The notes below the pieces were generated by a model. It searched no databases. It was not told the DNA's origin and was given only the letters and a program-made list of their open reading frames with translations. Shown here piece by piece: positions 13,674 to 36,006 of a stretch of DNA of 63,942 nucleotides (position 1 is the stretch's first letter; each line of letters opens with the position of its first letter). Source of the DNA: Oscillospiraceae bacterium (lineage in GTDB: Bacteria > Bacillota > Clostridia > Oscillospirales > Oscillospiraceae); the NCBI GenBank assembly GCA_017465745.1, contig JAFTVM010000085.1, forward strand, positions 1 to 63,942. The letters run 5' to 3'. The position numbers and the translations under genes were made by a program.

Positions 13674-13678
13674 TGGAT

Positions 13679-14710: not shown

Positions 14711-14730
14711 CATTGGAAAGGAGCCCGATT

Positions 14731-17082: not shown

Positions 17083-17110
17083 TCAGAATGGCTTGATGAT
17101 ACCAAGATAG

Positions 17111-17150
17111 AAAAGACGTGAGCGACACATAGTCGTTCACGTCTTTTTTA
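17111..17150 (+). terminator. Intrinsic terminator closing the rightward fructan operon
   Basis: A 15-bp stem (one G-U pair), 7-base loop, and a run of six T that overlaps the stem base. Confidence 0.85.
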
Positions 17151-17215
17151 TTGGATACAAAGCCGGATATGAAATGCGAAGCGCGTTGCCCATGGTCTGT
17201 GCCGACGTGGGCATA

Positions 17216-17254
17216 GAAAAAGTACCCCGGCAATTCCAGGTGGATTGCCGGGGT
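17216..17254 (-). terminator. Intrinsic terminator of the Pr6Pr gene
   Basis: On the minus strand a 10-bp GC-rich stem (17224-17233 with 17245-17254) is followed by ACTTTTT, 15 bases past the stop codon. Confidence 0.75.
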
Positions 17255-17268
17255 GGAGGGGAACGGGG

Positions 17269-17916: not shown

Positions 17917-17948
17917 GGATATGTACTCCTTCATAACTACAATGAACA

Positions 17949-17980
17949 GGACCCACTGCGGTCAATACCGCAGCGGGTCC
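17949..17980 (-). terminator. Hairpin after the surface-protein gene
   Basis: A 13-bp stem with one mismatch starts 11 bases past the stop codon on the minus strand. The following T-tract is poor, so termination is probable but not certain. Confidence 0.45.
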
Positions 17981-17991
17981 CAGGTAAAGGA

Positions 17992-20670: not shown

Positions 20671-20769
20671 TCTGTTCTCCTCACATTCTTTCAGATATAG
20701 ATGATCCGGAATCTGAGAACGCATGGACGGCGGAAACCGCGCATACTCCCCATATTCCATTCTGAACAT

Positions 20770-20798
20770 AGGATACATGATAAAGTTGAAAAAGTCAA
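20770..20798 (-). promoter_or_regulatory. Promoter of the surface-protein gene
   Basis: Minus strand TTGACT, 17-base spacer, TATCCT. A GTTGA-n5-TCAAC inverted repeat at the -35 could be an operator. The leader would be about 90 bases. Confidence 0.5.
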
Positions 20799-20990
20799 CG
20801 GATTTGGAGAAAAAATCTTCCAAAACAAGGGGTGTTTTTTGGTGAAATCTAATCGAAATTTTGATCATTCAACGTTTGACGTGTTTCGCGCTTCCGGCAG
20901 TCCCGTGTCCCTGTTGACGGCGACAGACCCTCAAAGCTGTCTGAGGACGGAAGCGGCAGCGCCGGGGCGCCGGGTTGTACTGATGCGGTA

Positions 20991-21042
20991 AAAATCCATA
21001 TCACGATATATGAGATTGTCCACACCGTCGTATATGGATTTT
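20991..21042. other. Long imperfect stem-loop in the 20671-21249 intergenic region
   Basis: An 11-bp stem (20991-21001 with 21032-21042) followed inward by a 4-bp ACGA/TCGT stem and a 22-base loop. It lies between divergent transcription units and is far from both starts. I see no gene in 20799-21181; the remainder is unstructured to my eye. Confidence 0.4.
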
Positions 21043-21181
21043 ATGTGCATCTCGTCTTAAGAAGTGCTGCCTTCGAAGTGCTGCGTTCCTGTTTTATAGT
21101 TGTACGCCCGGGCTGACTCCGGCTGGCTGAAAAAAGACATTTATTTTTGGTCATTAATGCCAATAATCTGAAAGGAAATGA

Positions 21182-21210
21182 TTGACTTTTGTTTAACATA
21201 TTGATATAAT
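21182..21210 (+). promoter_or_regulatory. Promoter of the AtuA-like/importer operon
   Basis: TTGACT (21182-21187), 17-base spacer and a perfect TATAAT (21205-21210). Transcription would start near 21217, inside the palindrome that follows. Confidence 0.75.
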
Positions 21211-21212
21211 CC

Positions 21213-21227
21213 AATTGTTCAACAATT
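21213..21227. promoter_or_regulatory. 15-base palindrome at the transcription start, likely repressor operator
   Basis: AATTGTT-C-AACAATT is a perfect inverted repeat just downstream of the -10 box. Size and TTGT/ACAA arms fit FadR-subfamily GntR operators. The GntR gene at 31875 near the end of this cluster is the obvious candidate to bind it; that link is inferred. Confidence 0.6.
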
Positions 21228-21249
21228 AAAAGGAAAGAAGGGAGCGTTC

Positions 21250-22617
21250 ATGCGTAACCAATTGAAAATTCTTTCTCCCTGTGGAATCCTGGGTTATGGA
21301 TTTCCGCAGGAATCCTTCGTGCGTGGTATTGCACAGCATCCGGATGCCATTGTGGTGGATGCCGGCTCTACCGATGCCGGCCCCCATAAGCTGGGTGCTG
21401 GTGTAGCCATCGTCAGCCGTATGGCAATGTATCAGGACCTGAAAATGTTCGTTGACTATGGTGTCAAGGCAGGTATCCCGGTGGTGATCGGCTCCGCTGG
21501 CGGCGCCGGTGCGGATGTTCATGTCCGCTGGACGCTGGATATCCTCAACGACGTCCTGAAGGATGCCGGCGTCACTGCCAAGGTGGCCATCGTCCATGCG
21601 GATATCCCCCACGCGGCAGTCATGGGGGCAGTGGAGGATGGGCGTATCCTGTCCATGGGTGCCAACATTCCGATGCTGGACCAGCAGATCGTAGATGCCA
21701 CCGGCGATATCGTGGCCCAGATGGGCCATGAGCCCATCGTCCGCGCTCTGGACACCGGTGCGGATATCATCGTGGCCGGCCGGGCCTATGATCCCTCCAG
21801 CTTTGCCGCCGTGTGCATCCGCCGGGGCTTCGATCCCGGTCTTGCCTACCACATGGGCAAGGTCCTGGAGTGCGGCGCCCTGTGTGCCGAGCCAGGCACC
21901 ACCAAGGACTGCATCATGGGCACCATCTACGACGATCATTTCGTGGTGGAGGCCCTGAACCCCATCCGCCGCTGCACCGTCACCACGGTTGCGGCCCACA
22001 CCTTCTACGAGAAGGAGAACCCCTGCGTGCTCCATGGCCCCGGCTTTACCCTGGATCTGACGGCCTGCCGGTTCGAGCAGGTCTCCGACCGGGCGGTGGC
22101 TGTCTACGGAAGCCGCTATGAGAAGGCCCCGACCTACAACATCAAGCTCGAAGGCGCCAGCCGGGTGGCCTACCGGACCTTCGTGGTGGCCGGTATCCGG
22201 GATCCGCTGCTGATCTCCCAGCTGGAGGAAGTGGAGGAGCTGGTCAAGCAGAGCGTCCGCACCCAGCTGCGCCAACTGGATCCCGACAGCTACCAGATGA
22301 ATTTCCTCAACTACGGCATCGACGGCATCATGGGCTCCACCGAGCCGGACCGAAGCCCGGGGCATGAGGTCTGCGTCATGTTTGAGGCCCTGGCCGAGAC
22401 CCAGGAGATCGCCAATACGGTCTGCTCCTCCATGCGCTCGACCCTGCTGCACTACGGCTACGAGGGCAGAAAGTCCACCGCCGGCAATCTGGCATTCCCC
22501 TTCGCACCCAGCGACGTGCCCTTCGGCCCGGTCTACCGTTTCTCCGTCTACCACCTGATGCAGATCCCTGATCCTCTGGAGCTGTTCCCGGTGGAATGCG
22601 TACAAATGCCGAGGTGA
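21250..22617 (+). CDS. AtuA-like DUF1446 family protein
   Basis: 455 residues. The opening (GYGFPQESF, DAGSTDAGPHKLG, GSAGGAGAD) and ADIIVAGRAYDPS are typical of the DUF1446/AtuA-like family, named from the Pseudomonas acyclic terpene utilisation cluster. Their reaction is not established. No signal peptide, so cytoplasmic. GGGAG precedes the ATG. It is the first gene of the cluster, behind a strong promoter and palindrome, with the DUF4387 gene 4 bases downstream, a pairing I know from other genomes. It probably acts on the imported compound or a derivative. Confidence 0.82.
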   Translation: MRNQLKILSPCGILGYGFPQESFVRGIAQHPDAIVVDAGSTDAGPHKLGAGVAIVSRMAMYQDLKMFVDYGVKAGIPVVIGSAGGAGADVHVRWTLDILNDVLKDAGVTAKVAIVHADIPHAAVMGAVEDGRILSMGANIPMLDQQIVDATGDIVAQMGHEPIVRALDTGADIIVAGRAYDPSSFAAVCIRRGFDPGLAYHMGKVLECGALCAEPGTTKDCIMGTIYDDHFVVEALNPIRRCTVTTVAAHTFYEKENPCVLHGPGFTLDLTACRFEQVSDRAVAVYGSRYEKAPTYNIKLEGASRVAYRTFVVAGIRDPLLISQLEEVEELVKQSVRTQLRQLDPDSYQMNFLNYGIDGIMGSTEPDRSPGHEVCVMFEALAETQEIANTVCSSMRSTLLHYGYEGRKSTAGNLAFPFAPSDVPFGPVYRFSVYHLMQIPDPLELFPVECVQMPR

Positions 22618-22621
22618 GAAC

Positions 22622-22948
22622 ATGAAAACACTCTACGACATCGCCAAGGTCATCCGCAGCAAGAATGCGGGACCCTTTTCCATCACCCTGGACGTCCTGT
22701 TCGATGACGCACAGACCTACCGGAAGGTGAAGGAAGCCAATCTCATCAACAAACCGCTTATCGCAAAGCTCTACCAGATCCCCGAAGACAGCATTACGGA
22801 GCTGGTCTACTTCGACCAGGCCTACGGCATCAAGGTAACCTACGACCGCAAGATTTCCTCCGGCACCATCGGAGATCGGGACGTGTACGGCGCTCAGCAG
22901 CATGCCCCTCTGATGCTCCTGCCGGTGGACGATGTGGTCTGCGGATAA
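22622..22948 (+). CDS. DUF4387 family protein
   Basis: 108 residues, close to the usual length of DUF4387 proteins. Recognisable parts are IAKVIRSKNAGP, LDVLFDD and DVYGAQQHAPL. In AtuA-related loci this small protein accompanies the DUF1446 protein and may be its second subunit. It begins 4 bases after that gene stops (GAGGTGAGAAC ribosome site spans the junction). Function unknown. Confidence 0.8.
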   Translation: MKTLYDIAKVIRSKNAGPFSITLDVLFDDAQTYRKVKEANLINKPLIAKLYQIPEDSITELVYFDQAYGIKVTYDRKISSGTIGDRDVYGAQQHAPLMLLPVDDVVCG

Positions 22949-22968
22949 ATAAAAGGAGATGAGAAAAC

Positions 22969-23919
22969 ATGAGTGCACCCCCGAAAAATGCTGCAGCCCC
23001 GGGTAAAACCGGCAGGCTGCTGCGCAAGGCCTACAGTCAGCGCGTATTGTTCCTGATGGTCATTCCCTGCATCATCCTGGTGGCAATCTTCTACTGCGGC
23101 CCCATGTATGGCTGGCTGATGGCTTTCGTCAACTACAAGCCGAAGCTGGGCGTCTTCGGCAGCGAGTTCGTCGGTCTGAAGTATTTCAGGCAGTTCTTCA
23201 ACGATCCCGCCATTGGACGGATCCTGCGCAATACCGTGGCCATGAGCGGCATGAACATCATTGCCCACAGCATCCTGCCCCTGCTGCTGGCGCTGATGAT
23301 CAACGAGGTTGGCAACAAGTATTTCAAGAGCGCGGTGCAGACCCTGACGTATCTGCCCCACTTTATTTCCTTTGTTGTCGTCTCCAACATCTTCCTGGAG
23401 CTGATGGGCACGGAAGGCCCCCTGAACCAGGCGCTGCTGAACATGAACATGACCGAGGCCGCCATTAAGTTCTGGCAGGAGCCTTCCTGGTTCTGGCTGC
23501 TGGTCACCATCATCCGTGCCTGGAAGGAAGTGGGCTGGGACGCCATCCTCTACCTGTCCGCCCTGGCCGCCATCGACACCACCCAGTATGAAGCCGCTGC
23601 CATCGACGGCTGCGGCCGGTTCCGCCGGATCTGGTATGTGACCATCCCCGGCCTGATGCCCACCGTGGTGACGCTGTGGGTGCTGAACATGTCCGGTATC
23701 TTCGCCGCCAGCTTCGACGCTTCCTACATGCTGGGCAACGCCATCACCTCCGATGTGGCAGAGGTCATCGAGACCTACGTCTACGACATCGCGCTGGCCA
23801 ATGGCAGCCAGTATTCCTACTCCACGGCCATCAGCCTGCTGCAGACCGTAATTGGCTTTATCATGGTGTGGCTGACCAACAAGCTGTCGCAGAAGACGAC
23901 AGAATATTCTTTGTGGTAA
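22969..23919 (+). CDS. ABC importer permease, LplB type (second system)
   Basis: 316 residues with six membrane helices, the LplB-type start (RVLFLMVIPC, CGPMYGWLMAF) and an EAA loop (EAAAIDGCG). AAAAGGAG lies before the ATG. It is paralogous to the permease at 8491 but clearly diverged, so it should serve a different solute. No ATPase gene is present in the cluster. Confidence 0.92.
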   Translation: MSAPPKNAAAPGKTGRLLRKAYSQRVLFLMVIPCIILVAIFYCGPMYGWLMAFVNYKPKLGVFGSEFVGLKYFRQFFNDPAIGRILRNTVAMSGMNIIAHSILPLLLALMINEVGNKYFKSAVQTLTYLPHFISFVVVSNIFLELMGTEGPLNQALLNMNMTEAAIKFWQEPSWFWLLVTIIRAWKEVGWDAILYLSALAAIDTTQYEAAAIDGCGRFRRIWYVTIPGLMPTVVTLWVLNMSGIFAASFDASYMLGNAITSDVAEVIETYVYDIALANGSQYSYSTAISLLQTVIGFIMVWLTNKLSQKTTEYSLW

Positions 23920-23932
23920 GGAGGTCCGTGCA

Positions 23933-24847
23933 ATGGCAAGAAAAAATATGGGTATCCGCAAGGGCCCCGGCGAGATCGCCTTTGAGATCGTAAACTATAC
24001 CATCCTGGCGGTGGTCGCCGTTTCCATGCTGTACCCCTTCATCTATGTTCTGGCGATCTCCCTGAACGACGCCAACGACAGTCAGCTGGGCGGTATCTGG
24101 CTGTATCCCCGGGTGCTGTCCTTCGAGAGCTACAAGATCATCTTCAGCGATCCCTCCCTGCTGCAGGCCCTGGGCATCAGCGTGGCCCGTACCGTCATCG
24201 GTACCGTGCTGACGGTGATCGGCTGCTCCATGTTCGCCTATGTGTTTACCCGCAACGAGTTCGTGCTGTATAAGCCGCTGAAGGGTTTCTTCTTCTTCTG
24301 CATGTTCTTCGGCGGCGGCGGCCTGATCCCCACCTACATGCTGTATCTGGATCTGGGCCTGTACAACAGCTTCTGGGTATATGTCATCCCGACGATCATC
24401 AACCTGTGGTATGTCACCCTGTTCCGCACCTATTTCCGCTCCATCCCCGGCGAGCTGCTGGAGGCCGCCCGGATCGACGGCGCCGGTGAATTCCAGGTGT
24501 ATCTGCGGGTGCTGATGCCTGTATCCAAGCCCATCATCGCCACCATCACCCTGTTCTCCGCCGTGGCCCAGTGGAACTCCTACCGGGATACCCTGTACTA
24601 CACCACCGACAAGAATCTGCGCTCCCTGCAGTACATCGTCATGGAGATCATCAAGAAGGCTGAGGGCAGCCACATGATCGACCGCAAGGAAATGATGGAG
24701 ATGTTCCACGGCGACGCTTCCACCGCCGACCCCGTTTCCCTGCGCATGGCCATCACCATCTGCACCGTGCTGCCCATCATCATGGTGTATCCGTTCCTGC
24801 AGAAGCATTTCATGAAGGGCATGATGGTTGGCTCCATGAAGGGCTGA
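23933..24847 (+). CDS. ABC importer permease, LplC type (second system)
   Basis: 304 residues, six membrane helices, MFFGGGGLIPTYM and EAA loop EAARIDGAG. Starts 13 bases after the first permease with AAGGAGG. Partner of the LplB-type permease. Confidence 0.92.
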   Translation: MARKNMGIRKGPGEIAFEIVNYTILAVVAVSMLYPFIYVLAISLNDANDSQLGGIWLYPRVLSFESYKIIFSDPSLLQALGISVARTVIGTVLTVIGCSMFAYVFTRNEFVLYKPLKGFFFFCMFFGGGGLIPTYMLYLDLGLYNSFWVYVIPTIINLWYVTLFRTYFRSIPGELLEAARIDGAGEFQVYLRVLMPVSKPIIATITLFSAVAQWNSYRDTLYYTTDKNLRSLQYIVMEIIKKAEGSHMIDRKEMMEMFHGDASTADPVSLRMAITICTVLPIIMVYPFLQKHFMKGMMVGSMKG

Positions 24848-24874
24848 TCCGCCATATCCGAAGGAGGAAAAACA

Positions 24875-26599
24875 ATGAAACACACACTGAAAACCCTGCT
24901 GTGCCTGACGCTGGTGCTGGCAACCCTGCTGTCCATGACCGCCTGCGGCGGCCGCGGCGGCAGCGCGGTCGAGGAAGTGACCTACGCCGGTCAGGAAGAT
25001 ATGACATTTGAAGAGCTGCTGGAGCTGGACCGCCAGAACCCCATCACCATCCAGATCTATGTGGCTGACATGACCGATATTCCTGCCTCCGATTCTGCCG
25101 TTCTCCAGGCCATTGCCGAGCGGACCGGCACCACCATCGAGCTGGTGGGCATCGAGTCCGACCGCCTGCAGATGCTGCTGGCTTCCAGCGAATATCCCGA
25201 CGTCATGGTCATGAACCGCAACGCCACCTTCTATGATTATCTGGAGTCCGGCGACCTGGCCGACCTGGCCCCCCTGCTGCAGCAGTGGGCCCCCACCGTC
25301 TGGGAAATGAACGGCGAGATGATCGACCTGTTCACCAATGCCGACGGCGAGCTGCTGTACCTGACCGAGAACAACGACCTGCTGCGCCCCGGTGAGAAGC
25401 ATCCCGAAGACGCCACCGATCCCAACCGTGCCCAGGACGAGCTGCCCTGGCACTCCACCATCTATGTCCAGTACCCCATGGTCAAGGAGATCTACGGCAA
25501 GGCCATCACCACCTTCGATGAGTACGTGGAAGCCCTGGACGCCTTCATGGCAGAATACGGCGACAACGAGAAGATGTACGCCATCAGCTACGACAAGGAT
25601 TCCGCCGGCGATATCCTGTGGGCCGGCCTGTCCATGTATGGCTACAAGTGCATGTACAAGGGCGGTCTGTACGTCACCAAGGACGGCGAGAACTATTCCT
25701 ACGGCTTCAAGACCCCCGAAGCCAAGGAATGGCTGATGTTCCTGAACCGGCTGTACCGGGAGGGCTACATCTACACCGACGCTTCCGTCCAGTCCTATGA
25801 CCAGTTCAGCCGCCAGATGAACCGCTGCAACGTGTTCTCCTTCATCGGCAACTACTACGCCATCTACGAGACCAACAAGACCCTGGCTGCCAACAATATC
25901 ACCGACTGCTACATCCCCCAGAAGGTCATGGCCGACGGCGTTGAGCAGGTCTACCAGTACAATTCCGCCTACACCGGCGCCGGCGCTTTCATGATCATGG
26001 ATTCCAGTCCCAACAAGGCCCGGATCTGCCGCCTGCTGGAGTACCTGTACTCCGACGAGGGCTCCATCCTCCACGGCTGGGGCATCGAGGGCGAGGACTA
26101 TGTGGTTGACGCCAACGGCATCCGCGACATCACCAAGGAAGTGGCCGACCAGAAGGCCAACGAGGATTACGACCTGACCCGCGGTATCCGCTCCCTGTAC
26201 TCTGTCATCAACCTGCCCACCTACACCACCGACGGCCAGCCCGCGTTCGCCCGCTACGCTCCCTACTACAGCAGCGAGGGCGGCATCACCGCCAGCGACG
26301 CCATCATCCGGGAGGATCCCGTATACAACTGGCACGAGGACTGGAAGGGTACATTCTACTCCGACCTGTCCGAGATGGATATCGTCATCGCCTCCGGCAC
26401 CGACGCTGCCATTGCCAGCGCACAGTGCGCCTCCCTGATCAAGGATAAGATCAACAAGCTGATCATGGCTGCCACCGCTGAGGAAGCCGAAGCGATCTAC
26501 GAGGAAGCGCTGAAGGAATTTGAGGCTTACGGCATCTCCGCCTGGGAAGAGGAGATCAACAGACAGATCCACGAGAAGCGTGAAAAGCTGGGTCAGTAA
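24875..26599 (+). CDS. Extracellular solute-binding lipoprotein (second system)
   Basis: 574 residues with signal peptide and lipobox SMTAC. Large LplA-type binding protein, longer than its counterpart at 10386, with an acidic surface. AAGGAGG precedes the ATG. It delivers the unknown solute to the permeases upstream in the same operon. The C-terminal helix is rich in Glu/Lys. Confidence 0.9.
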   Translation: MKHTLKTLLCLTLVLATLLSMTACGGRGGSAVEEVTYAGQEDMTFEELLELDRQNPITIQIYVADMTDIPASDSAVLQAIAERTGTTIELVGIESDRLQMLLASSEYPDVMVMNRNATFYDYLESGDLADLAPLLQQWAPTVWEMNGEMIDLFTNADGELLYLTENNDLLRPGEKHPEDATDPNRAQDELPWHSTIYVQYPMVKEIYGKAITTFDEYVEALDAFMAEYGDNEKMYAISYDKDSAGDILWAGLSMYGYKCMYKGGLYVTKDGENYSYGFKTPEAKEWLMFLNRLYREGYIYTDASVQSYDQFSRQMNRCNVFSFIGNYYAIYETNKTLAANNITDCYIPQKVMADGVEQVYQYNSAYTGAGAFMIMDSSPNKARICRLLEYLYSDEGSILHGWGIEGEDYVVDANGIRDITKEVADQKANEDYDLTRGIRSLYSVINLPTYTTDGQPAFARYAPYYSSEGGITASDAIIREDPVYNWHEDWKGTFYSDLSEMDIVIASGTDAAIASAQCASLIKDKINKLIMAATAEEAEAIYEEALKEFEAYGISAWEEEINRQIHEKREKLGQ

Positions 26600-26609
26600 G
26601 GAGGCTGCC

Positions 26610-27638
26610 ATGAAGATTCGCATGTCTGCACTTCTCCTTGCTGTGCTCCTGCTGCTGACGGCCTGTGCCACCGGCCCGGCTGAGGATACCCAGCCTACGC
26701 CCTCCCAGGAATCCCACAACACAGCCCAGACTGATTCTACAGAAGGGGAGGAAGAAGCTTTGGATTATTTTGGCATCCTGTACCCCGAAGATGGCACCAT
26801 TCCCAGAGGGAAGGACCTGACGGAGTATGTCCAGCAGCTGGCCGACAACACCAGCCGCATCAGCCAGATCAACTACACCTGGAAGAACGGCCGCCCCTCC
26901 ATGGAGGTCCTGGCCGGTACCTACGACGAGTACCACAGCTATGAAGCCCCCGCCGGGAGCCCCCTGGAGCTGGTCTATGACGAGAGCGAATTCTATGACT
27001 ACGTGCTCTACCTGCCCGAGGGCTACGATCCCGCCGACACCGACAAGGAGTGGCCCGTGATCTACTTCTTCCACGGCATTGGTGAGCGGGGCAGCGATTT
27101 GAACGTGCTGCTGCCCTACGGCGTCCTGCGCTACCTGGGCAGCGGCGGCAAGCTGGACGCCATCGTCATCGCGCCCCAGTGTCCTGCTGAATCCCACTGG
27201 GCGGACACCAATGACGAGGTGGAGAAGCTGGTTCAGTTCGTCCCCGAGATGACCGCCAAGTACAACATCGACACCGACCGCATGTATCTGACCGGCCTGT
27301 CCATGGGCGGCCGCTGCACCTGGAAGCTGGCGCTGGCTATGCCCGACGCCTTTGCTGCCATCGCCGTGGTCTGCGGCAGAACGGATACCTATGAGTTCGA
27401 CACCCTGGCGGATATGCCCATCTGGATGTTCCACGGTGTGCAGGACGGCACCGTGTCCTTCAACAACATCACCAAGAATATCCTCCCGGTTCTGGATGAG
27501 GTGGGTCACCGCTATTACAAGCTGACCATCTTCCCCAGCATGAGCCATGAGATCTGGAACACGGTCTATGACCGGGCGGATGTCTATGACTGGCTGCTGT
27601 GCCAGTCCCTGTCCAACAATCATAATGATAATCAATAA
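26610..27638 (+). CDS. Surface lipoprotein with alpha/beta-hydrolase (esterase) domain
   Basis: 342 residues from ATG 26610 (AAGGAGG upstream), 10 bases after the binding-protein gene. Lipobox LLTAC is followed by a Gln/Thr/Ser/Glu-rich linker and a hydrolase domain from about residue 115. Catalytic elements are visible: YFFHGIGERG oxyanion region, GLSMGG nucleophile elbow, HGVQDGTV with the acid, and MSHEIW with the His. It resembles feruloyl/acetyl esterases and polyhydroxybutyrate-depolymerase-like carboxylesterases. It would remove an ester group outside the cell before import. Confidence 0.82.
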   Translation: MKIRMSALLLAVLLLLTACATGPAEDTQPTPSQESHNTAQTDSTEGEEEALDYFGILYPEDGTIPRGKDLTEYVQQLADNTSRISQINYTWKNGRPSMEVLAGTYDEYHSYEAPAGSPLELVYDESEFYDYVLYLPEGYDPADTDKEWPVIYFFHGIGERGSDLNVLLPYGVLRYLGSGGKLDAIVIAPQCPAESHWADTNDEVEKLVQFVPEMTAKYNIDTDRMYLTGLSMGGRCTWKLALAMPDAFAAIAVVCGRTDTYEFDTLADMPIWMFHGVQDGTVSFNNITKNILPVLDEVGHRYYKLTIFPSMSHEIWNTVYDRADVYDWLLCQSLSNNHNDNQ

Positions 27639-27673
27639 AAAGATTTCATTCGCAGAATTGAAGCTTTTTATAT

Positions 27674-27753
27674 GAAGATCATAATGAGACGGGATTCTGT
27701 GATTTTCTGTTCCGAAAATCACAGAATCGACAGCGCCGTCAGGCGATGTCTTT
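27674..27753 (+). repeat. Intergenic palindromic repeat A, copy 1
   Basis: An 80-base element with a perfect 14-bp stem (ATTCTGTGATTTTC and its complement) and a second small hairpin (GACA-g-CGCC-gtca-GGCG-a-TGTC) ending in TCTTT. The second copy is at 60857-60936, the same length and about 85% identical. Both lie 30-50 bases upstream of a gene in the same orientation. It fills most of the 27639-27802 gap and could also terminate the upstream transcript (T-tract 27749-27755). Confidence 0.85.
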
Positions 27754-27802
27754 TTCATTAAAAATTAGTATCAGAACGAAGCGAAATAATGGAGGCAACT
27801 GA

Positions 27803-28789
27803 ATGCTTACAAGAAACGATCTGATCCGGGACCCCGCGCTGGCCAGGGACAAGGCCCTGGGCGCTCTGGCCGGCCTTGCCATCGGCGACAGCTTCGGTGA
27901 TGCAGGCCGTGTGCCGGAAAATCATCAGAACTACGGCATGATCCTGTCCTTCGACACCGGCAAGTGCTGGAGCACCGATGATACGGAATTTGCCATCTTC
28001 ACCGCCAAGATGCTCATTGACCACAACGCGGACCCCACCCACCAACAGCTTGCCGAAGGGTGGCTCAAGTACATCGCTGCCCAGGATGATTTTCCCAGAG
28101 GCGGCAACAGCGAGATCGAAGCCGCCGAGAACCTGAAAAAGGGCCTGCTGCCCCCTGAATCCGGCCGCCGCAGCGTCTACGGCTTCAGCGACGGCGCCTG
28201 TATGCGCATCTCCCCCGTGGGCATCGTCTGCGCCGGTGATGTGGAGCGGGCGAAGGCGCTGGCAAAGCGGGACGCCGAGGTCAGCCATCACACCAGCGGC
28301 ATCTGGGCGGCTCAGGCGGTGGCCGCTGCCGTGGCCACCGCCATGGTCAGCGGCACCGATGAGGAGATCATCGACGCTGCCATGAGCTGCATCCCCACCG
28401 ACTGCTGGCTCTATGACAATATGAAGCACATGCTGGAGCTGGTGGAGCTGGCGGAAACGGATTTCTGCACCGCCTGGATGGCGCTGCATGACGACTTCCG
28501 CACCCGCTACAAAGCCGCTGTGGAGGAAGCCATTCCCCAGGCCTTCGCGCTGTTCCTGCTGAGTAAGGGCGATTTCCGCCGGGGCATCATTCTCGCGGCC
28601 AACTTCGGCCGGGACGCCGATACCATCGGCGCCGTCCTGGGCGCTGTCCGGGGTGCCCAGCTGGGCGCTTCTGCCATCCCCGAAGCCTGGATCGAGCGTA
28701 CCGGCTATCCCAGCGGCACCTGCCTGCAGTTCACCAAGGGCCTGACCATCCGCGGCCTTGCGGCGGATCTGGCTGCCCTGATCCGCTGA
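27803..28789 (+). CDS. ADP-ribosylglycohydrolase family protein
   Basis: 328 residues. ARH/DraG-type all-alpha hydrolase with the di-magnesium motifs in order: GLAIGDSFGD (about 23-32), STDDTEF (about 62-68) and GRDADTIGAV (about 272-281). Family members cleave N- or O-glycosidic bonds of ADP-ribose; bacterial paralogues in sugar clusters have uncertain substrates. No signal peptide. Preceded by GGAGG and repeat A. Followed 10 bases later by a second family member. Confidence 0.88.
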   Translation: MLTRNDLIRDPALARDKALGALAGLAIGDSFGDAGRVPENHQNYGMILSFDTGKCWSTDDTEFAIFTAKMLIDHNADPTHQQLAEGWLKYIAAQDDFPRGGNSEIEAAENLKKGLLPPESGRRSVYGFSDGACMRISPVGIVCAGDVERAKALAKRDAEVSHHTSGIWAAQAVAAAVATAMVSGTDEEIIDAAMSCIPTDCWLYDNMKHMLELVELAETDFCTAWMALHDDFRTRYKAAVEEAIPQAFALFLLSKGDFRRGIILAANFGRDADTIGAVLGAVRGAQLGASAIPEAWIERTGYPSGTCLQFTKGLTIRGLAADLAALIR

Positions 28790-28799
28790 GGTGGCGCCT

Positions 28800-30914
28800 A
28801 TGGCAACCATGCTGGAACGGATCTACGCCGGCTTTCTCGGCATGAATGCGGGCATCCGTCTGGGTGCCCCCGTGGAACCCGCCGCCTGGGATTTTGACCG
28901 CATCGCCCAGTTTTACGGGGAGATCCGGGGATATGTCCGGGATTATAAGAACTTCGCTGCCGATGACGACGTCAACGGTCCCGTCTACTTCCTGCGGGGC
29001 CTGCTGGACAACGGCATCCGCGAAGAACTGACCCCCCAGGCCGTGGGCGAAGCCTGGCTCAACTACGCCCGGGACGGCATCGGCCTGTACTGGTGGGGTG
29101 GCGAGGGGGTCTCCACGGAGCACACGGCCTACCTCAACCTGAAAAAGGGAATCCCCGCCCCCCGGTCTGGCTCCATCGAGCAGAACGGCATCGTCCTTGC
29201 CGAACAGATCGGCGGTCAGATCTTCATTGATACCTGGGGCCTGATCAACCTGGGGGATCCCCACCGGGCCGCTCAGATGGCAGCCGCCGCTGCCAGCGTC
29301 TCCCATGACGGCAACGGCCTGTACGGCGCTGCTTTCATGGCTGCCTGCATCGCCGCTGCGTATACCGCCGGGAGCGTGGATGAGATCCTGGATGCCGGCC
29401 TGGCGGAGATCCCCGCAGACAGCACCTATGCCGCCGTGGTGGGGGCCGTCCGGGCCTTCCACGCGGCCCATCCCGGCGACTGGCGCAGCTGCATGCGGAT
29501 GCTGATCAGCCAGTGGGGTTACGACAAGTATACCGGCGTCTGCCACATTATTCCCAACGCAGGCGTGTGTATCCTGTCCATGGTCTACGGCGGCGGCGAC
29601 TTCGCCCGCACCATCGAGATCGCATCCATGTGCGGCTGGGATACCGACTGCAATGCGGGCAATGTGGGCACGATTCTGGGTGTGTACTGCGGCCTGGAAG
29701 GAATTGCTGACCATTACCGCAAACCCATGAACGATTTCATTGCGCTGTCCGGTGTCTCCGGCTGCCTGAACAATCTGGACGTGCCCACCTACTGCAAGTT
29801 CCTGTATCAGCTCTACCGGCTGACCCACGGCATGGAGGAGGACCCCGGGGTCCGGCTTCCCCGGGGCGGTGAGCAGCTGTTTGACTTCTCGCTCCCCGGC
29901 TCCACCCACGGTCTGCGGCTGAGCAATCATCTGCGGTTCATGACCCATACCGACGAAAGCGGCCTGAAGCTCATTGTGGACCGGGTGCTGCCTGCCGATA
30001 ACTGCGACATTTACTACAAGCCCTTCTACCGCCGCCATGATTTTGATGACGAGCGGTACAAGCCCGTCTTCTCTCCCACGGTTTACAGCGGCCAGACCCT
30101 GCGCCTGCGCCTGGTGCCCCATGTCTATCCCGACGGCCAGCGGATCTCCGACGGTCAGCTGTTCCTGCGGCCCTACATCCGCACCGCTGTCCGGGAGGAA
30201 CGGTATGAAGGTGCCGTCCAGTGGCTGGAGTCCGAAAAAGAGGTGGAAGTCAGCTTCCGGATCCCTGATACCGGCGGCGACTGCGTGGCAGAGGTGGGCT
30301 TCCATGTAGAGGCATCCGCCAACACCACTGTCCGGCTCTTCGCCATGCTGGAGCTGAAGGAAATGACCATCACCGGCAAGCCCAGCTACCGGATTGCCAC
30401 CGCCCTTTGCCGGGAGGAATTTCTCCAGCAGACACCCTTCTCCCTGAATCACGGCGCCTGGCGCACCGATAGCGGCGCGCTGCTGTGCAGCACGGCGGAG
30501 CCTGCCCAGGCCTTCACCGGCAATTACTACGCCACCGATGTGGCCCTTACCGCCCAGGTGACGGCAGCGCCCGGCACCTGCGTCATGGCGCGGGCCGCCG
30601 GTACCCGGCGGTATCTGGCGGCCGGTTTCCTGGCAGAAGGGAAGGTGGGCCTGCGGGTCCACGAAGCAGGTGCCGTCACCGACTACACCGCCGACTTCCC
30701 CTGGGAAGCAGGCCGGGGCTACGAGACGTCTCTGGTCGTGCGCGGCAGCGAAGCAACCCTGATTTTGGATGGTGAACCCATCCTGACGGCGCAGATCCCC
30801 AACCTGGCCTCCAGTGGTATGGTAGGCTTTTCCCAGGAGTGTCCCGGCAGCGGCCGCTGGCGTGACCTGTTCGTCCGTGAAAGCGGCCCCTATTCCAGCC
30901 TGATCCCCCAATAA
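28800..30914 (+). CDS. ADP-ribosylglycohydrolase-family protein with long C-terminal extension
   Basis: 704 residues from ATG 28800 (GAGGTGG 7 bases upstream; a GTG at 28791 lies in the site). Residues 1 to about 350 show a divergent ARH fold: GMNAGIRLGAP, AADDDVNGP and GWDTDCNAGNVG occupy the metal-motif positions. The remaining half is beta-rich (from about 370), with a final sandwich resembling a LamG or DUF1080-like domain (LRVHEAGAV, ATLILDGEPI). Such two-domain ARH proteins are larger than the usual 300-400 residues. It probably acts with the smaller homologue upstream. No signal peptide. Confidence 0.78.
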   Translation: MATMLERIYAGFLGMNAGIRLGAPVEPAAWDFDRIAQFYGEIRGYVRDYKNFAADDDVNGPVYFLRGLLDNGIREELTPQAVGEAWLNYARDGIGLYWWGGEGVSTEHTAYLNLKKGIPAPRSGSIEQNGIVLAEQIGGQIFIDTWGLINLGDPHRAAQMAAAAASVSHDGNGLYGAAFMAACIAAAYTAGSVDEILDAGLAEIPADSTYAAVVGAVRAFHAAHPGDWRSCMRMLISQWGYDKYTGVCHIIPNAGVCILSMVYGGGDFARTIEIASMCGWDTDCNAGNVGTILGVYCGLEGIADHYRKPMNDFIALSGVSGCLNNLDVPTYCKFLYQLYRLTHGMEEDPGVRLPRGGEQLFDFSLPGSTHGLRLSNHLRFMTHTDESGLKLIVDRVLPADNCDIYYKPFYRRHDFDDERYKPVFSPTVYSGQTLRLRLVPHVYPDGQRISDGQLFLRPYIRTAVREERYEGAVQWLESEKEVEVSFRIPDTGGDCVAEVGFHVEASANTTVRLFAMLELKEMTITGKPSYRIATALCREEFLQQTPFSLNHGAWRTDSGALLCSTAEPAQAFTGNYYATDVALTAQVTAAPGTCVMARAAGTRRYLAAGFLAEGKVGLRVHEAGAVTDYTADFPWEAGRGYETSLVVRGSEATLILDGEPILTAQIPNLASSGMVGFSQECPGSGRWRDLFVRESGPYSSLIPQ

Positions 30915-30973
30915 CCTGTGCTCCCGCAGCGCCTGCTGCAAAGAAATAATTACACTTTTAGGAGGAAAAACAA

Positions 30974-31747
30974 ATGAGAAGAATCATGTCCCTGCTGATG
31001 GCCCTCATGCTGCTGGCTTCCCTGCTGTGCGCATGCGGCGGTGATCCCGCTACTGAGACCAATCCCCCCGAAAACAATGTATCCGAAAACAATGAGGCTG
31101 AAACCAATGGCTCCAACAATGGAGCTGAGGATCCCGATGCCGGCTCCGCTGAAACGAAGGAGATCGTCGTTTCTGATTACCTTGCTGACGACAGCAAGTG
31201 GGAAGATGACGGCGGCTACCACGAGCGGGACGAGTCCAAGCTGTACTTCGACAACTACATGGCCGGCGACTACTGCGCCGTCCGTCTGACCGAGGAAGCA
31301 CAGAACGTCACCTACAAGTTCGACCTGACCATCAGCCAGCTGGCTGAGGTCTCTATGGAAGACTTCACCTGGTGGGATTCCGAGCTGCTGATCATCGCCC
31401 GCTCCGCCATTCCCGCTGCCAGCTGGTATGACGACGGCACCCAGACCGGCTACACGCTGACCTCCTGGGGCGACATGAGCACCGTGTTCATCGGCCGCGC
31501 CGGCTATGACGACGCCTTCGGCGAGTTCGAGTGGAACGTCAACGACGGCCAGCCCCACGCCGTTGAGCTGAGCGTTGTCAACAACGAGGACAACACCGCT
31601 GTCACCATCACCCTGGTGGTGGACGGCGTCGAGATCGCATCCGTTGTGGACGACGGCACTCTGATTAAGAACGAGCGTCCCGGCATGTACCCTGATGCCG
31701 GCGGTCTGACTATCCGCTGCAAGTGGCTGGAAGCTACCATCGAGTAA
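30974..31747 (+). CDS. Lipoprotein with beta-sandwich domain, unknown function
   Basis: 257 residues. Lipobox LLCAC, then a low-complexity Asn/Glu/Thr-rich linker (about 25-60), then a domain with jelly-roll-like strands (YCAVRL, YKFDLTIS, AVELSVVNN, ITLVVDGVEIASV) similar in style to LamG/DUF1080 folds. AGGAGG precedes the ATG. It could be a surface carbohydrate-binding protein of the cluster. Confidence 0.65.
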   Translation: MRRIMSLLMALMLLASLLCACGGDPATETNPPENNVSENNEAETNGSNNGAEDPDAGSAETKEIVVSDYLADDSKWEDDGGYHERDESKLYFDNYMAGDYCAVRLTEEAQNVTYKFDLTISQLAEVSMEDFTWWDSELLIIARSAIPAASWYDDGTQTGYTLTSWGDMSTVFIGRAGYDDAFGEFEWNVNDGQPHAVELSVVNNEDNTAVTITLVVDGVEIASVVDDGTLIKNERPGMYPDAGGLTIRCKWLEATIE

Positions 31748-31756
31748 TCTGAACCC

Positions 31757-31792
31757 TTTTGCGCAGCGCCGCGTTGCCGGCGCTGCGCAAAA
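31757..31792. other. 14-bp symmetric hairpin at the end of the importer/ARH operon
   Basis: Stem 31757-31770 with 31779-31792 and an 8-base loop. The T-run is part of the stem on either strand, so it is terminator-like but lacks a free U-tract. It probably separates this operon from the regulator unit. Confidence 0.6.
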
Positions 31793-31797
31793 ATAGC

Positions 31798-31826
31798 TTG
31801 CGAAAGCGGCACAATTGGCATATAAT
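31798..31826 (+). promoter_or_regulatory. Promoter of the GntR regulator unit
   Basis: TTGCGA, 17-base spacer, perfect TATAAT. I see no copy of the 21213 palindrome here. Confidence 0.65.
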
Positions 31827-31874
31827 AGTTCCATATACTTATTTTTACAATATAAATGATAAAGGGGACTATGT

Positions 31875-32573
31875 ATGAAGGACTTCCTGCCTTTGGACAA
31901 CAAGTGTCGTTCAGAGCAAGTGGCAGAACGTATCATCAAGATGATTGAAAGCGGACAGCTGCGCGAAGGCGATAAGCTGCCCAACGAACCGGAACTTGCC
32001 CGCCAGCTGGGCATCAGCCGCGGCATCCTCAGAGAGGGCATGGCGCAGCTGAAGGCCCAGGGCATTATCAGCCGAAAGCCGAAGGACGGCACCTATATTC
32101 TGCCGCTGAAGACCAGCCAGGGGGAATTCACCCGCTCGACGCTGCGTTTGATCAAAACCTCATCCTTCCGCAACATTATGGAAATGCGCGACGCCATTGA
32201 GCAGAAGGCCGCCGTGCTGGCAGTGGACCGGGCTGCCGATGAAGAGCTGGAGGAGCTGCGGGAGATCGCGCTGAAATGCGAACAGCATTCCGGTGAGGAT
32301 GACCTGGATTATTATTTCCATTACCGTCTTGTGGAGTTGTCCGGCAACTCCATTTTTATGGGTATCGTGAATACCTACTTTGAAGAAATCCGCCAGATCC
32401 GGGACAACAATATCCGTGCTCCCGGCCATCGGCAGGAGGTCTGCGATGAACATCTGGCCATCGTGGACGCTATCAGCCGCCGGGATCGGGATATGGCCAA
32501 GGCCGCCGTGGAGAACCACATGCGGCAGATCTGGGATAGATGGCAAAACCGCCATACCGCAGAGGAATCTTAA
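31875..32573 (+). CDS. GntR-family regulator, FadR subfamily (FCD domain)
   Basis: 232 residues. The N-terminal winged helix is typical (MIESGQLREGDKLP, ELARQLGISRGILREG, GTYILPL), followed by an all-alpha FCD ligand domain from about residue 90 with the expected metal/ligand residues in D-x-D-YYFHYRLVEL, DEHLAIVDAI and ENHMRQIW. FCD regulators usually sense organic acids or sugar acids. It heads a short unit with the DUF624 and deoB genes and probably controls the 21250 operon through AATTGTTCAACAATT. Confidence 0.88.
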   Translation: MKDFLPLDNKCRSEQVAERIIKMIESGQLREGDKLPNEPELARQLGISRGILREGMAQLKAQGIISRKPKDGTYILPLKTSQGEFTRSTLRLIKTSSFRNIMEMRDAIEQKAAVLAVDRAADEELEELREIALKCEQHSGEDDLDYYFHYRLVELSGNSIFMGIVNTYFEEIRQIRDNNIRAPGHRQEVCDEHLAIVDAISRRDRDMAKAAVENHMRQIWDRWQNRHTAEES

Positions 32574-32576
32574 AAT

Positions 32577-33215
32577 ATGTTTCAGATTTTTTCGCCTGAC
32601 AGCATCTTCGGCCGCTGGATAGGCTTTCTTTTTGATGCGCTGCTGATCAGCATTGCCTGGGCTGTCTGCTGTTTGCCCGTGGTGACCATCGGCGCGTCTA
32701 CCGCCGCGCTGCACCGCGTGGCGATGAACTGGATGCGCCGCCGGGCAGACTGCGACCTCAAAAACTTCTTCGCCGCCCTGCGGGACAATTTCTGCAGCGG
32801 CACCGTGATTTGGCTGCTGCTGCTCGTGCCCCTGGCGCTGATCGTGTTCAGTGCTTACGCAGTGTGGATTGCCCTGGTCCCCGCTTCTGCGGCGGTCAAG
32901 TGGATGATCCTGGCCGCTGCACTGATCTGGACTGCCACGGCGGTCTACGCGTTTTCCCTGCAGGCGGTCTTTGAAAATACGCCTGTCCGTACCGTGTTCA
33001 ATGCGCTGCGCATTGCGCTGTGTAATATCGGCACCACGGTGATCCTGATCGCCATGATCGCCCTGGCGGTCTTCTGTACCCTGGTGCTGCCTTACGGGGC
33101 GTTTATCTACATTCCGTTCTGTGCGTTCCTTTCGGCACGGCCGGTATGGAACATCTTTGCCGCCATCATGCGCAATCCGGATGTCATTGTGGATGGTATC
33201 GACGAAAGCAAATAG
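32577..33215 (+). CDS. DUF624/YesL-type membrane protein
   Basis: 212 residues, about five or six membrane helices; N-terminal FGRWIGFLFDALLIS and CCLPVVTIGASTAAL are typical for DUF624, a family regularly found beside LplABC importers. It starts 3 bases after the GntR stop. Role unknown. Confidence 0.8.
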   Translation: MFQIFSPDSIFGRWIGFLFDALLISIAWAVCCLPVVTIGASTAALHRVAMNWMRRRADCDLKNFFAALRDNFCSGTVIWLLLLVPLALIVFSAYAVWIALVPASAAVKWMILAAALIWTATAVYAFSLQAVFENTPVRTVFNALRIALCNIGTTVILIAMIALAVFCTLVLPYGAFIYIPFCAFLSARPVWNIFAAIMRNPDVIVDGIDESK

Positions 33216-33236
33216 GCAAAAGAAAGTGGAAGCAAT

Positions 33237-34406
33237 ATGGCAAAACGAGTATTTTTAATTGTTCTCGACAGCGCCGGCATCGGCGCTGCGAAGGATGCCG
33301 CCAAATTCCATGATGCAGGCTGTGATACCATGGGCACCTGTGTCCGCAGCGGCAGACTACACGTTCCCAACATGGAAAAGCTGGGCCTGTTTCATATCGA
33401 CGGCACTTCCTTCCGTAAGGAAAGGGGCGTTGTGACCGGCTGCTACGGCAGGCTGGTGGAGCAGTCCGCCGGTAAGGACACCACCGTGGGACACTGGGAG
33501 CTGGCGGGCGTGATCTCCGAGCAGGCGATGCCCACCTATCCCCGGGGCTTCCCCCGGGAGGTCATGGAAGAGTTTGAGCGCCGCACCGGCCGGGGCACCC
33601 TCTGCAATCTGCCCTATTCCGGCTCCGAGGTCATCAAGGACTACGGCCGGGAGCACATCGCCACCGGCAAGCTGATCGTGTATACCTCTGCCGACAGCGT
33701 GTTCCAGATCGCTGCCCATGAAGATGTGGTGCCCGTGCAGGAGCTGTACCGGTATTGCCGGATCGCGCGGGATCTGCTCCAGGGTGAGCACGGCGTCGGC
33801 CGTGTCATCGCCCGTCCTTTCGTGGGCGGACATCCCTACACCAGAACGGTCAACCGCCACGATTTCTCCCTGACACCGCCCAGAGATACCATTCTGGATA
33901 CCCTGGTGGCTGCCGGCAAGAGCGTCATCGGCATCGGCAAGATCTACGATATTTTTGCCGGTCGGGGTGTGTCCGAGACCTATCCCAACAAGGGTAACGA
34001 CGCCAACATGGAACAGCTCCTCCAGTGCATGGAGCAGGAATTTGAGGGCCTGTGCTTCGTGAATCTGGTGGACTTTGATATGATGTACGGTCACCGCAAT
34101 GATATTGCGGGCTATACCGATGCCCTGAACCGGTTCGATGAGCAGCTGGCCTCCGTTCTGGAAAAGCTGCGTGATGACGATCTGCTGATCATCACTGCCG
34201 ACCACGGCTGCGATCCCGGTTTCCCGGGCACCGACCACACCCGTGAGGATGTGCCCTGCCTGTGCTGTGGAAAGAACCTGAAGCAGGGCATCAATCTGGG
34301 CGTCCGCAGCAGCTATGCGGATATTGCCCAGACTGTTGCCGATTATTTGGCGGTATCCTTTGGCGGCGACGGTTCCAGTTTCCTGTCACTGATCATGGAT
34401 CGCTGA
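33237..34406 (+). CDS. deoB: Phosphopentomutase
   Basis: 389 residues, the normal DeoB length. Alkaline-phosphatase-fold metal and catalytic motifs are present: IVLDSAGIGAAKDA, GKDTTVGHWELAG with the phosphorylated Thr, DIFAGRGVS, NLVDFDMMYGHRND and TADHGCDPGFPGTDHTRE. It interconverts (deoxy)ribose 1-phosphate and ribose 5-phosphate in nucleoside salvage. It lies 21 bases after the DUF624 gene in the regulator unit, which points to ribosyl metabolism for the cluster. Confidence 0.95.
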   Translation: MAKRVFLIVLDSAGIGAAKDAAKFHDAGCDTMGTCVRSGRLHVPNMEKLGLFHIDGTSFRKERGVVTGCYGRLVEQSAGKDTTVGHWELAGVISEQAMPTYPRGFPREVMEEFERRTGRGTLCNLPYSGSEVIKDYGREHIATGKLIVYTSADSVFQIAAHEDVVPVQELYRYCRIARDLLQGEHGVGRVIARPFVGGHPYTRTVNRHDFSLTPPRDTILDTLVAAGKSVIGIGKIYDIFAGRGVSETYPNKGNDANMEQLLQCMEQEFEGLCFVNLVDFDMMYGHRNDIAGYTDALNRFDEQLASVLEKLRDDDLLIITADHGCDPGFPGTDHTREDVPCLCCGKNLKQGINLGVRSSYADIAQTVADYLAVSFGGDGSSFLSLIMDR

Positions 34407-34508
34407 ATGAGCGTTCCCCGTTGCCCCCGGACGCTGCCGGGATCACGAAGGGGCTGAATTGGCAGAGGGAATGGTACTTTACTGAGTATGGAATTAAGCG
34501 AATGAAAA

Positions 34509-34536
34509 ATGGCACTGCCTTTTGGGGCAGTGCCAT
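34509..34536 (+). terminator. Candidate terminator of the GntR/deoB unit
   Basis: An 11-bp perfect stem with a six-base loop, followed by ATAAAATTTT. It lies about 100 bases beyond deoB. The T-tract is delayed, so efficiency is uncertain. Confidence 0.55.
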
Positions 34537-34687
34537 AAAATTTTATGCATGCTTCCACCTCCGGGCGGCACATGGGTGTGCCGGCAGAAATACAGGACAG
34601 GGACTGCCGCCGGGAACGATGGAATCAGCCGCCCAGCCTCTCGCCGAAGGTGATCCGGGGCCTGGTGAAGAGAAATGAACTATAAGC

Positions 34688-34717
34688 GCCCGCGTTCTGA
34701 ACGGAACGCGGGCTTTT
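34688..34717 (+). terminator. Intrinsic terminator between convergent units
   Basis: A 10-bp GC-rich perfect stem, six-base loop and TTTT. It lies just past the end of the oppositely oriented transporter gene and may serve both. Confidence 0.7.
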
Positions 34718-34723
34718 GATCCG

Positions 34724-35278
34724 TTACAATCCGTACAGGAGAATACCAAGGAAGGCAGAGAGGACGATCAGGGCGATGGGGCTGAGCTTCTTTTTCCGCA
34801 GCTTCCGGAAGACAGCCATGGCCACCACCAAAAGGGCGGCGATGGTGATGGCGGAAAAGTCTGCCTGTCCCGCCGGGACGCAGTTCGTCAGGAGCATCCG
34901 GATACCGGTGGCGGCGATGATGCCGGTGATGCCGGGCTTCAGTCCCCGCAGTGCTGCCTGCATATAAGGATGCTTCAGCAGGCTTTTCAGCACCGCCGTC
35001 ACCAGCAGGATGATGAGGAAGGAGGGCAGCACCACTGCCGCCGTGGCGGTGAGGGCGCCTGGGAGACCGGCCTGGCTGCTGCCGACGTAGGTGGCCATGT
35101 TCACCATGATGGGGCCGGGTGTGCTCTCGCTGACGGCGATCATGTCCGTCAGGGCACTTTCACTGAGCCAGCCCCGGGACATGACCACATCCCGGATCAG
35201 AGGGATCGCGGCGTAGCCGCCGCCGAAGGTGAAAAGGCCCACCTGCAAAAAGGCCAGAAACAGTTCCAGACAGATCAT
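34724..35278 (-). CDS. chrA: Chromate-transporter family half-protein (CHR), C-terminal partner
   Basis: 184 residues. LFTFGGGYAAIPLI, SESTPGPIMVNMATYVG and a run of hydrophobic helices are typical of a single CHR domain. Short CHR proteins work as pairs made by adjacent genes. It overlaps its partner upstream by four bases. The family moves chromate or sulfate-like anions; the true substrate here is unknown. Confidence 0.88.
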   Translation of the reverse strand: MICLELFLAFLQVGLFTFGGGYAAIPLIRDVVMSRGWLSESALTDMIAVSESTPGPIMVNMATYVGSSQAGLPGALTATAAVVLPSFLIILLVTAVLKSLLKHPYMQAALRGLKPGITGIIAATGIRMLLTNCVPAGQADFSAITIAALLVVAMAVFRKLRKKKLSPIALIVLSAFLGILLYGL

Positions 35279-35829
35279 TTGCAGCCCCCTTTCCGCTGGG
35301 CGGCGAAGACGGCCAGGCCCACCGCTCCCGCCGCCAGCATCACGGCGATGGAGGAGATGTTCCGGCCCAGGAGGGCGCCCAGCAGCATGATTCCGGCGGT
35401 GCCTGCCGTGAGGAACCGGGAAAGGGGCGATTTTTCTCCCTTTTTCAGCATGTTCACAGCGGCCTGAAGGATCAGCAGACCCACGGCGATGCGGATGCCC
35501 CGGAAGGCGCTGGCAATGAAGCCGATCTGCAAAAACCGGTCCAGAAACCGGGAGATGAGGAAAATGATCACAAAGGACGGCAGTACCACGCCCACCGTGG
35601 CCGCGGTGGCACCGGGCAGTCCCGCCCGGGCCAGGCCCACGAAGGTGGCACAGTTGATGGCGATGGGGCCGGGCGTAGACTCAGCCACCACGGTGATGTC
35701 CATCATTTCCTCGTGGGTGATCCACTTCTTCTGCTCTACACACAGGTGCTGGATCATCGGGATCATGGCGTAGCCGCCGCCGAAGGTAAACAGGCCGATC
35801 TTCAGAAAGGTCACAAAGAGTTCAGTCAT
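35275..35829 (-). CDS. chrA: Chromate-transporter family half-protein (CHR), N-terminal partner
   Basis: 184 residues from ATG 35829, with GGGAGG 8 bases upstream; the frame is open further but without a site. LFTFGGGYAMIPMI and AESTPGPIAINCATFVG mark the CHR domain. It starts the two-gene operon and should form a heterodimer with the following gene. Confidence 0.88.
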   Translation of the reverse strand: MTELFVTFLKIGLFTFGGGYAMIPMIQHLCVEQKKWITHEEMMDITVVAESTPGPIAINCATFVGLARAGLPGATAATVGVVLPSFVIIFLISRFLDRFLQIGFIASAFRGIRIAVGLLILQAAVNMLKKGEKSPLSRFLTAGTAGIMLLGALLGRNISSIAVMLAAGAVGLAVFAAQRKGGCK

Positions 35830-35865
35830 AGGGCGCCTCCCTGGAATGGTTTTTTGTACGCTGCT

Positions 35866-35895
35866 ATTATACACAGCGGCCCGGCTGCCCGTCAA
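35866..35895 (-). promoter_or_regulatory. Promoter of the chromate-type transporter pair
   Basis: Minus strand TTGACG, 18-base spacer, TATAAT. Confidence 0.65.
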
Positions 35896-36006
35896 GACCG
35901 GCGGGTAATAACCGCTGGGGGTATGGGGGATACTGGTTGCCCCCGTATTCGGATCTCACCTGTATATGGGATTACAATGGATCCCCTTTCTTTTTCCCGG
36001 CGGATG

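Follow-up and report, generated by a model that had tools for sequence, protein, structure and literature searches.

Which compound is taken up and degraded by a gene cluster that joins a DUF1446/DUF4387 protein pair, an importer, an esterase lipoprotein and two hydrolases of the ADP-ribosylglycohydrolase (ARH) family? This question is raised by a stretch of 63,942 nucleotides from an Oscillospiraceae bacterium (assembly GCA_017465745.1, contig JAFTVM010000085.1; hereafter the window), which is an entire contig of a 2.73-Mb draft genome, and in which twelve genes on the + strand, separated by intergenic gaps of 1-164 bp, occupy positions 21250-34406. An earlier note, made from the letters alone, had read these genes as one catabolic system acting on a ribosyl compound, and all of the genes that it named are present there on that strand. 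Homology and gene neighbourhoods together point to a system that imports and degrades a ribosyl conjugate of citramalate, or of a very similar 2-hydroxy-2-substituted dicarboxylic acid, a reading to which we give about an even chance.

A conserved module and its lyase pair

When a species-genome collection was scanned once with CmlA, the AtuA/DUF1446 protein encoded at 21250-22617, six loci were found, five of which share the order CmlA-CmlB-LplB-LplC-binding protein-esterase-ARH1-ARH2-lipoprotein, with genes that are 42-93% identical one by one. The sixth locus, L103, stops inside the binding-protein gene; in CmlA it barely differs from locus L102. The five collinear loci belong to draft genomes of an uncultured Eubacteriales (a relative from the same genus, G001, in which contig L102 is contained in the longer stretch L029), an Oscillospiraceae, a Lachnospiraceae, another member of the Clostridiales and an Anaerolineaceae (Chloroflexota). 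Because five other loci, spread over two phyla, keep this order from CmlA to the lipoprotein, the cluster is more than a product of chance; it is real and functionally linked, and about ten of its genes form a conserved set common to distant bacteria. The single catabolic system proposed in the earlier note is thus borne out, and so is the expectation that its genes would co-occur in other genomes, where the neighbourhood survey found the module. Within the genus its distribution is patchy, with DUF4387 in 1 of 36 other genomes. Transposase-like and IstB-like genes, recognised by eye, lie just upstream of the module in L102 (259-1683) and L103 (237-983), which fits gain of the module by transfer.

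The first two genes, 4 bp apart, score 86 bits against AtuA (CmlA) and 133 bits against DUF4387 (CmlB; 22622-22948) in Pfam. In phmmer searches against solved structures, each protein had one match, to a subunit of a citramalate lyase (PDB 9erq/9evf): CmlA matches citramalate lyase subunit A (9erq_A) with an E value of 6.8e-138 and 48% identity over 440 aligned positions (residues 3-445), and CmlB matches subunit B (9erq_B) at 2.7e-27. Furthermore, 9erq_A agrees at 37 of the 41 positions that are near-invariant in 42 other CmlA rows, and at 31 of the 32 invariant ones. It is well supported by this homology that the pair, which the earlier note had called unexplained, belongs to the citramalate lyase CmlAB family, and that note was right in outline to have it handle an acid-like group. 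The enzyme name itself comes from the PDB entry; no paper on CmlAB and no mention of DUF4387 were found in the open-access literature searched, and DUF1446 is called unknown in passages of PMC4682846.

Among 393 genomes of the class, DUF4387 occurs in 22 (the window's included) at 27 places, and CmlA adjoins CmlB at all 26 of the other places. Five of these 26 loci are glutamate-mutase clusters; in L030, genes for the B12-binding subunit, MutL, MutE and methylaspartate ammonia-lyase were confirmed beside CmlAB. The CmlA of the solved structure groups with glutamate-mutase-linked CmlA proteins (54-57% identity), which fits citramalate as the last acid of the glutamate-mutase pathway, as described in parts of two sources (PMC4682846, PMC8473912). 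In L048-L054, CmlAB has as its neighbour a class I fumarase in two parts (one checked in L048, the other in L045), as would be expected if mesaconate were hydrated to citramalate there. On the reading proposed here, the poorly understood DUF1446/DUF4387 pair would gain a testable role, that of a citramalate lyase used outside glutamate fermentation.

Acid lyases, ARH proteins and a proposed route

The two ARH proteins, encoded at 27803-28789 (ARH1) and 28791-30914 (ARH2), score 174 and 168 bits against ADP_ribosyl_GH (PF03747; cutoff 26.2), and no signal peptide was seen in either by eye. Residues D29, T58, D59, D60, D271, D273 and T274 of ARH1 are invariant in 19 of 19 aligned sequences (L102 included; L120, a repeat of L086, left out) and align with the same motifs of DraG and its relatives. 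These GD, TDDT and DxDT motifs we take to be the dinuclear-metal site of the family. In ARH2, DDD (58-60) and DTD (284-286) are invariant in all 12 sequences, and its C-terminal domain is similar to the binding domain seen in the levanase structures 4b1m, 4b1l and 4azz (E 1.1e-7 to 2.4e-7), which is presumably the furanoside-binding CBM66.

A search with ARH1 alone, covering 398 genomes of the phylum, 393 of the class and smaller sets of 32, 72 and 38, found 13 genomes besides that of the window, and in 12 of them an acid lyase lies in the same cluster: CmlAB in eight (G624, G749, G864, G866, G868, G870, G882, G895) and CitE/CitF in four (G290, G648, G715, G924). The lone ARH1 genome without a lyase, G274, has its gene on an 8.3-kb contig. 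These counts come from tblastn at E values up to 1e-5 in stretches of at most 20 kb, and some of the loci are related, at family level for G864-G882 and for G290 with G274, and at genus level for G749 with G895; the ARH1 match of G648 is nearest to another ARH subgroup (ARHa). For control, ARH loci were taken from 16 of the 69 other matched genomes, mostly those with the best scores; L086 is a module locus and was moved, and among the 15 left, of which L087 and L091 are shortened by contig ends, neither CmlA nor CitE was found. Fisher's test on lyase presence gives p = 4e-7, a value that is overstated because the loci are related. On contigs of sufficient length, each cluster has two to four ARH-family genes; nine cluster genes checked with Pfam, beside one other protein, gave eight PF03747 and one DUF4387. 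In 9 of the 13 genomes the importer is another CUT1-type system instead of the Lpl type.

The trees suggest how these combinations arose. In the CmlA tree, the window-type loci form a clade of seven rows (support 100/99), the other ARH loci, including the Lpl-type L116, form one of nine rows (100/100), and non-module CmlA proteins sit between the two; in the ARH1 tree, the CitDEF-linked proteins fall in two separate places. From these two clades and two places it follows that lyases were recruited more than once. The CitE proteins of three clusters score 340, 363 and 290 against the citrate-lyase model, below its cutoff of 443.4. In passages of PMC4682846, CitDEF-CitCXG in the glutamate-mutase clusters of Clostridia is read as a citramalate lyase, and enterobacteria have DUF1446 in that place. 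Since both lyase types end glutamate-mutase clusters and CitE mostly falls below the cutoff, citramalate would be the most economical common acid. That CmlAB has been exchanged repeatedly for CitDEF indicates a single kind of acid, and a chemical search for the missing substrate thus becomes feasible. Separately, a protein with an FGE-sulfatase-like domain is encoded beside CmlB in the CUT1-type cluster L118 (4381-6453).

Evidence for ribose comes from the CitDEF clusters, all four of which carry a ribokinase gene: those of L086, L117 and L166 are above the equivalog cutoff of 299.65 (scores 363, 346 and 324), and that of L119 is a fragment. A ribosyl bond, as the earlier note had proposed, is plausible because these sister clusters carry a ribokinase. 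In L095 and L096, a ribokinase (327 and 329 bits) lies directly beside an ARH gene in the absence of an acid lyase; these are possibly simpler riboside systems. Upstream in the route, the module has two permeases (LplB-type, 22969-23919; LplC-type, 23933-24847; both BPD_transp_1) and the importer's solute-binding lipoprotein (24875-26599; SBP_bac_1), all conserved in module loci, followed by a predicted secreted esterase lipoprotein (26610-27638), an alpha/beta-hydrolase by Pfam with a lipoprotein signal seen by eye. The esterase scores 67.8 against the NCBIfam PHA-depolymerase model, below its cutoff of 150, and its nearest solved relative is the esterase 3doh. Apart from a weak 26% match beside L167, no such esterase was found outside the window-type loci and L116, and this limited occurrence suggests that the substrate is present as an ester or polyester there.

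Expression of the cluster is probably governed by its own regulator (31875-32573), which has GntR and FCD domains by Pfam. Upstream of CmlA lies a sigma-70-type promoter, TTGACT-17-TATAAT (21182-21210, + strand); a TTGAC-type promoter is found in this place in all seven module loci, with TATAAT as the -10 element in six and TAAAGT in L105. Just downstream of the -10 element, the palindrome TTGTYNAACAA recurs in all seven, a count that includes the nearly identical L102 and L103; L104 and L105 have extra copies further upstream, and L106 has a looser one. In the window this palindrome is AATTGTTCAACAATT (21213-21227), a 15-bp site that occurs at this one place even when up to two mismatches are allowed, and it is a probable FCD/GntR repressor site. 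In L102 and L107 the regulator gene lies downstream of the module; in L104-L106 its counterpart, 36-38% identical, is upstream and divergently oriented.

Taken together, these genes suggest the following route. Outside the cell, the esterase lipoprotein would trim or depolymerise the material, and its product would be imported by the binding protein and LplBC. Inside, ARH1 and ARH2 would hydrolyse ribofuranosyl bonds; the freed citramalate would be cleaved by CmlAB to pyruvate and acetate, and the ribose would pass through the host's ribokinase into pentose metabolism. Bound at the TTGTYNAACAA operator, the FCD/GntR protein may keep the operon shut off, with an acid or sugar product as the inducer that ends repression. 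Within this scheme, homology gives good support to the lyase step and support for the ribose step is moderate, while we infer the substrate itself, the order of steps, the binding and inducer of the regulator, and the location of the ARH proteins. A bolder extension, which we consider rather improbable, is that an undescribed polymer or oligomer of ester-joined ribofuranosyl-citramalate units exists in anaerobic guts and digesters, where it would be depolymerised by esterases, with ARH proteins acting as ribosidases that feed CmlAB or CitDEF.

Rival substrates

Several observations weigh against a ribosyl citramalate substrate. CmlAB is a general lyase, because the 26 other loci of the class carry it and none has an ARH match (a few of these contigs are short). 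Further ARH contigs of G868 and G882 (L164 and L167) show no lyase in view, both being cut at the lyase end. In ARH2 the first acidic motif is missing, GMN standing in place of GD by eye; of the ARH metal residues, whose unfitness the earlier note had named as a ground for refutation, those of ARH1 are intact. No ribokinase was found in the stretches searched of any CmlAB-type cluster, that of the window included; the host's best candidate, on another contig, scores 225 bits, below the cutoff of 299.65, and adjoins a ribose-type binding protein by eye. Neither ribosyl citrate nor ribosyl citramalate was found in the open-access literature searched, where citramalic acid with ribofuranosyl, and ARH with citrate lyase, returned only unrelated papers, and ARH with polysaccharide utilization returned nothing. 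The draft genome is 95% complete and carries 7% contamination. Finally, the CitE of L086 passes the citrate-lyase cutoff (445 versus 443.4), and E. coli cells with high citrate lyase activity are described, in passages of PMC4682846, as having no citramalate lyase activity.

These last two results make citrate possible, above all in L086. More broadly, the same architecture might serve another acid joined to ribose, such as citrate, 3-hydroxy-3-methylglutarate or another 2-substituted malate, which is possible but doubtful: the CmlA of the module stands in a clade apart and shares no more than 48% identity with the citramalate lyase of known structure, yet citramalate is what links both lyase types (through parts of PMC4682846 and the PDB name), and of the four CitE proteins three stay under the citrate-lyase cutoff. 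It is unlikely, though conceivable, that the sugar is not ribose at all and that the ARH proteins are general furanosidases acting on a plant or bacterial glycan, with the lyase removing an acyl substituent freed by the esterase. The levanase-CBM-like domain of ARH2, the lack of a ribokinase in CmlAB clusters, and ARH2-type proteins beside importers without a lyase (in L090 with a GH38-like gene, by eye) are in keeping with such a role. Against it stand the ribokinases that exceed the cutoff in three CitDEF clusters and those that adjoin two further ARH genes, as well as the esterase, whose occurrence is narrow (loci of the window type and L116) whereas the lyase persists in other loci. Methanopterin, which holds an alpha-riboside and a hydroxy acid, was set aside as a substrate, since its acid, 2-hydroxyglutarate, is unfit for a lyase of the citrate or citramalate style.

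Two further readings start from enzyme names in the cluster. In the earlier note, the substrate could be a ribosyl conjugate, a nucleoside or an ADP-ribose, from which ribose 1-phosphate would be passed on by the phosphopentomutase DeoB; this is very unlikely. The deoB gene (33237-34406; NCBIfam above cutoff) does lie 21 bp downstream of that for YesL on the same strand, and the CitDEF cluster L117 (G715) sits, by eye, between purine and pyrimidine biosynthesis genes (140-3038 and 18115-19899). DeoB is also an outlier, with a median identity of 58% to 29 of the 36 other genus copies versus medians of 71-78% for those, and such an atypical gene could stem from local gain or from a contaminant contig. 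However, DeoB was found in no other module locus examined, a thin test for window-type loci, since L104-L107 break off 1-935 bp beyond their final module gene and only G001 (L029, 5 kb past YesL) covers the exact place; the deoB of G001 sits on another contig. The gene is widespread in the genus, being present in 37 of 41 genomes (the window's included), and the window copy is the only one found in its genome. ARH enzymes hydrolyse their substrates and so give ribose, not ribose 1-phosphate. DeoB was rejected as a pathway member for its lack of recurrence with the module in the loci compared, and apart from it no nucleotide-handling gene is present among the twelve.

A de-ADP-ribosylation or anti-phage defence cassette, suggested by the ARH family name and metal motifs, is extremely improbable and was rejected. 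No PADLOC match was obtained for ARH1, ARH2, CmlA or the esterase, the neighbours are an importer, an esterase and an acid lyase, and the equivalog models are not reached: ARH1 scores 54.4 bits against DraG (cutoff 337) and 49.1 against Tri1 (cutoff 490), both far below, and ARH2 has no match to either NCBIfam model. The same scores speak against ADP-ribose or a nucleoside as the substrate. The outline given in the earlier note, a ribosyl bond plus an acid, thus holds in part, and the DeoB, nucleoside and ADP-ribose ideas lack support. The ribosyl citramalate reading would in turn give ARH-family proteins, which we presume to be best known for ADP-ribose, a testable role as catabolic ribosidases rather than only as ADP-ribosyl hydrolases.

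Neighbouring features and known systems

Three elements of the locus had not been named in the earlier note, namely the promoter and operator (21182-21227), a lipoprotein gene (30974-31747) and the YesL gene (32577-33215). The lipoprotein is conserved in module loci, with two copies in L105 and L106; it has no Pfam match and no credible PDB match (best E 0.11). YesL is a DUF624 membrane protein by Pfam, with a MusI-like NCBIfam match below its cutoff, and among the module loci compared it is found elsewhere only in L102/L029 and L107. Between the esterase and ARH1 genes lies a perfect 15-bp inverted repeat with a 6-bp loop (27693-27728) and no T run after it, which may form an RNA processing or attenuation hairpin; no known RNA family reaches the gathering threshold in 17000-36000. 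Just upstream of the module, positions 6977-17082 hold a separate fructan-type cluster in which Pfam identifies a PfkB kinase and two GH32 proteins, one of them carrying Laminin_G_3; a LacI regulator, LplBC and a binding protein are recognised there by eye. A large surface-type protein encoded on the minus strand at 17992-20868 has no Pfam match and carries a long PTDPTD-like repeat, and after deoB, also on the minus strand, lie two adjacent chromate-transporter halves (34724-35895; one checked by profile).

The module shares parts with several known systems. Its importer resembles the carbohydrate importers of the LplABC/YtcP type with YesL in having two permeases and a binding lipoprotein with no ATPase gene in the cluster, but here it is partnered with an acid lyase and ARH proteins. 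The ARH proteins share their sequence family and metal motifs with DraG, ARH3 and Tri1, but they fall below the DraG and Tri1 equivalog cutoffs and stand in a catabolic neighbourhood. CmlAB is homologous over the full length of both subunits to the enzyme of PDB 9erq and 9evf and is likewise encoded by adjacent genes, whereas in the window it is accompanied by genes for an importer and ARH hydrolases. The methylaspartate (glutamate fermentation) clusters show the same alternative of CitDEF or DUF1446, in passages of PMC4682846; the window cluster, in contrast, has neither glutamate mutase nor methylaspartate ammonia-lyase, and its acid would be expected to come from a glycoside. Another likeness is to the yegTUV operon of E. 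coli (L198), whose function is given as unknown in the part of PMC10819704 that concerns it, and in which the ARH protein YegU occurs with a transporter, the sugar kinase YegV and a GntR regulator (PMC10819704). While yegTUV differs in having a major facilitator superfamily transporter and no acid lyase in the stretch shown, the module described here may hint at the role of this uncharacterised operon.

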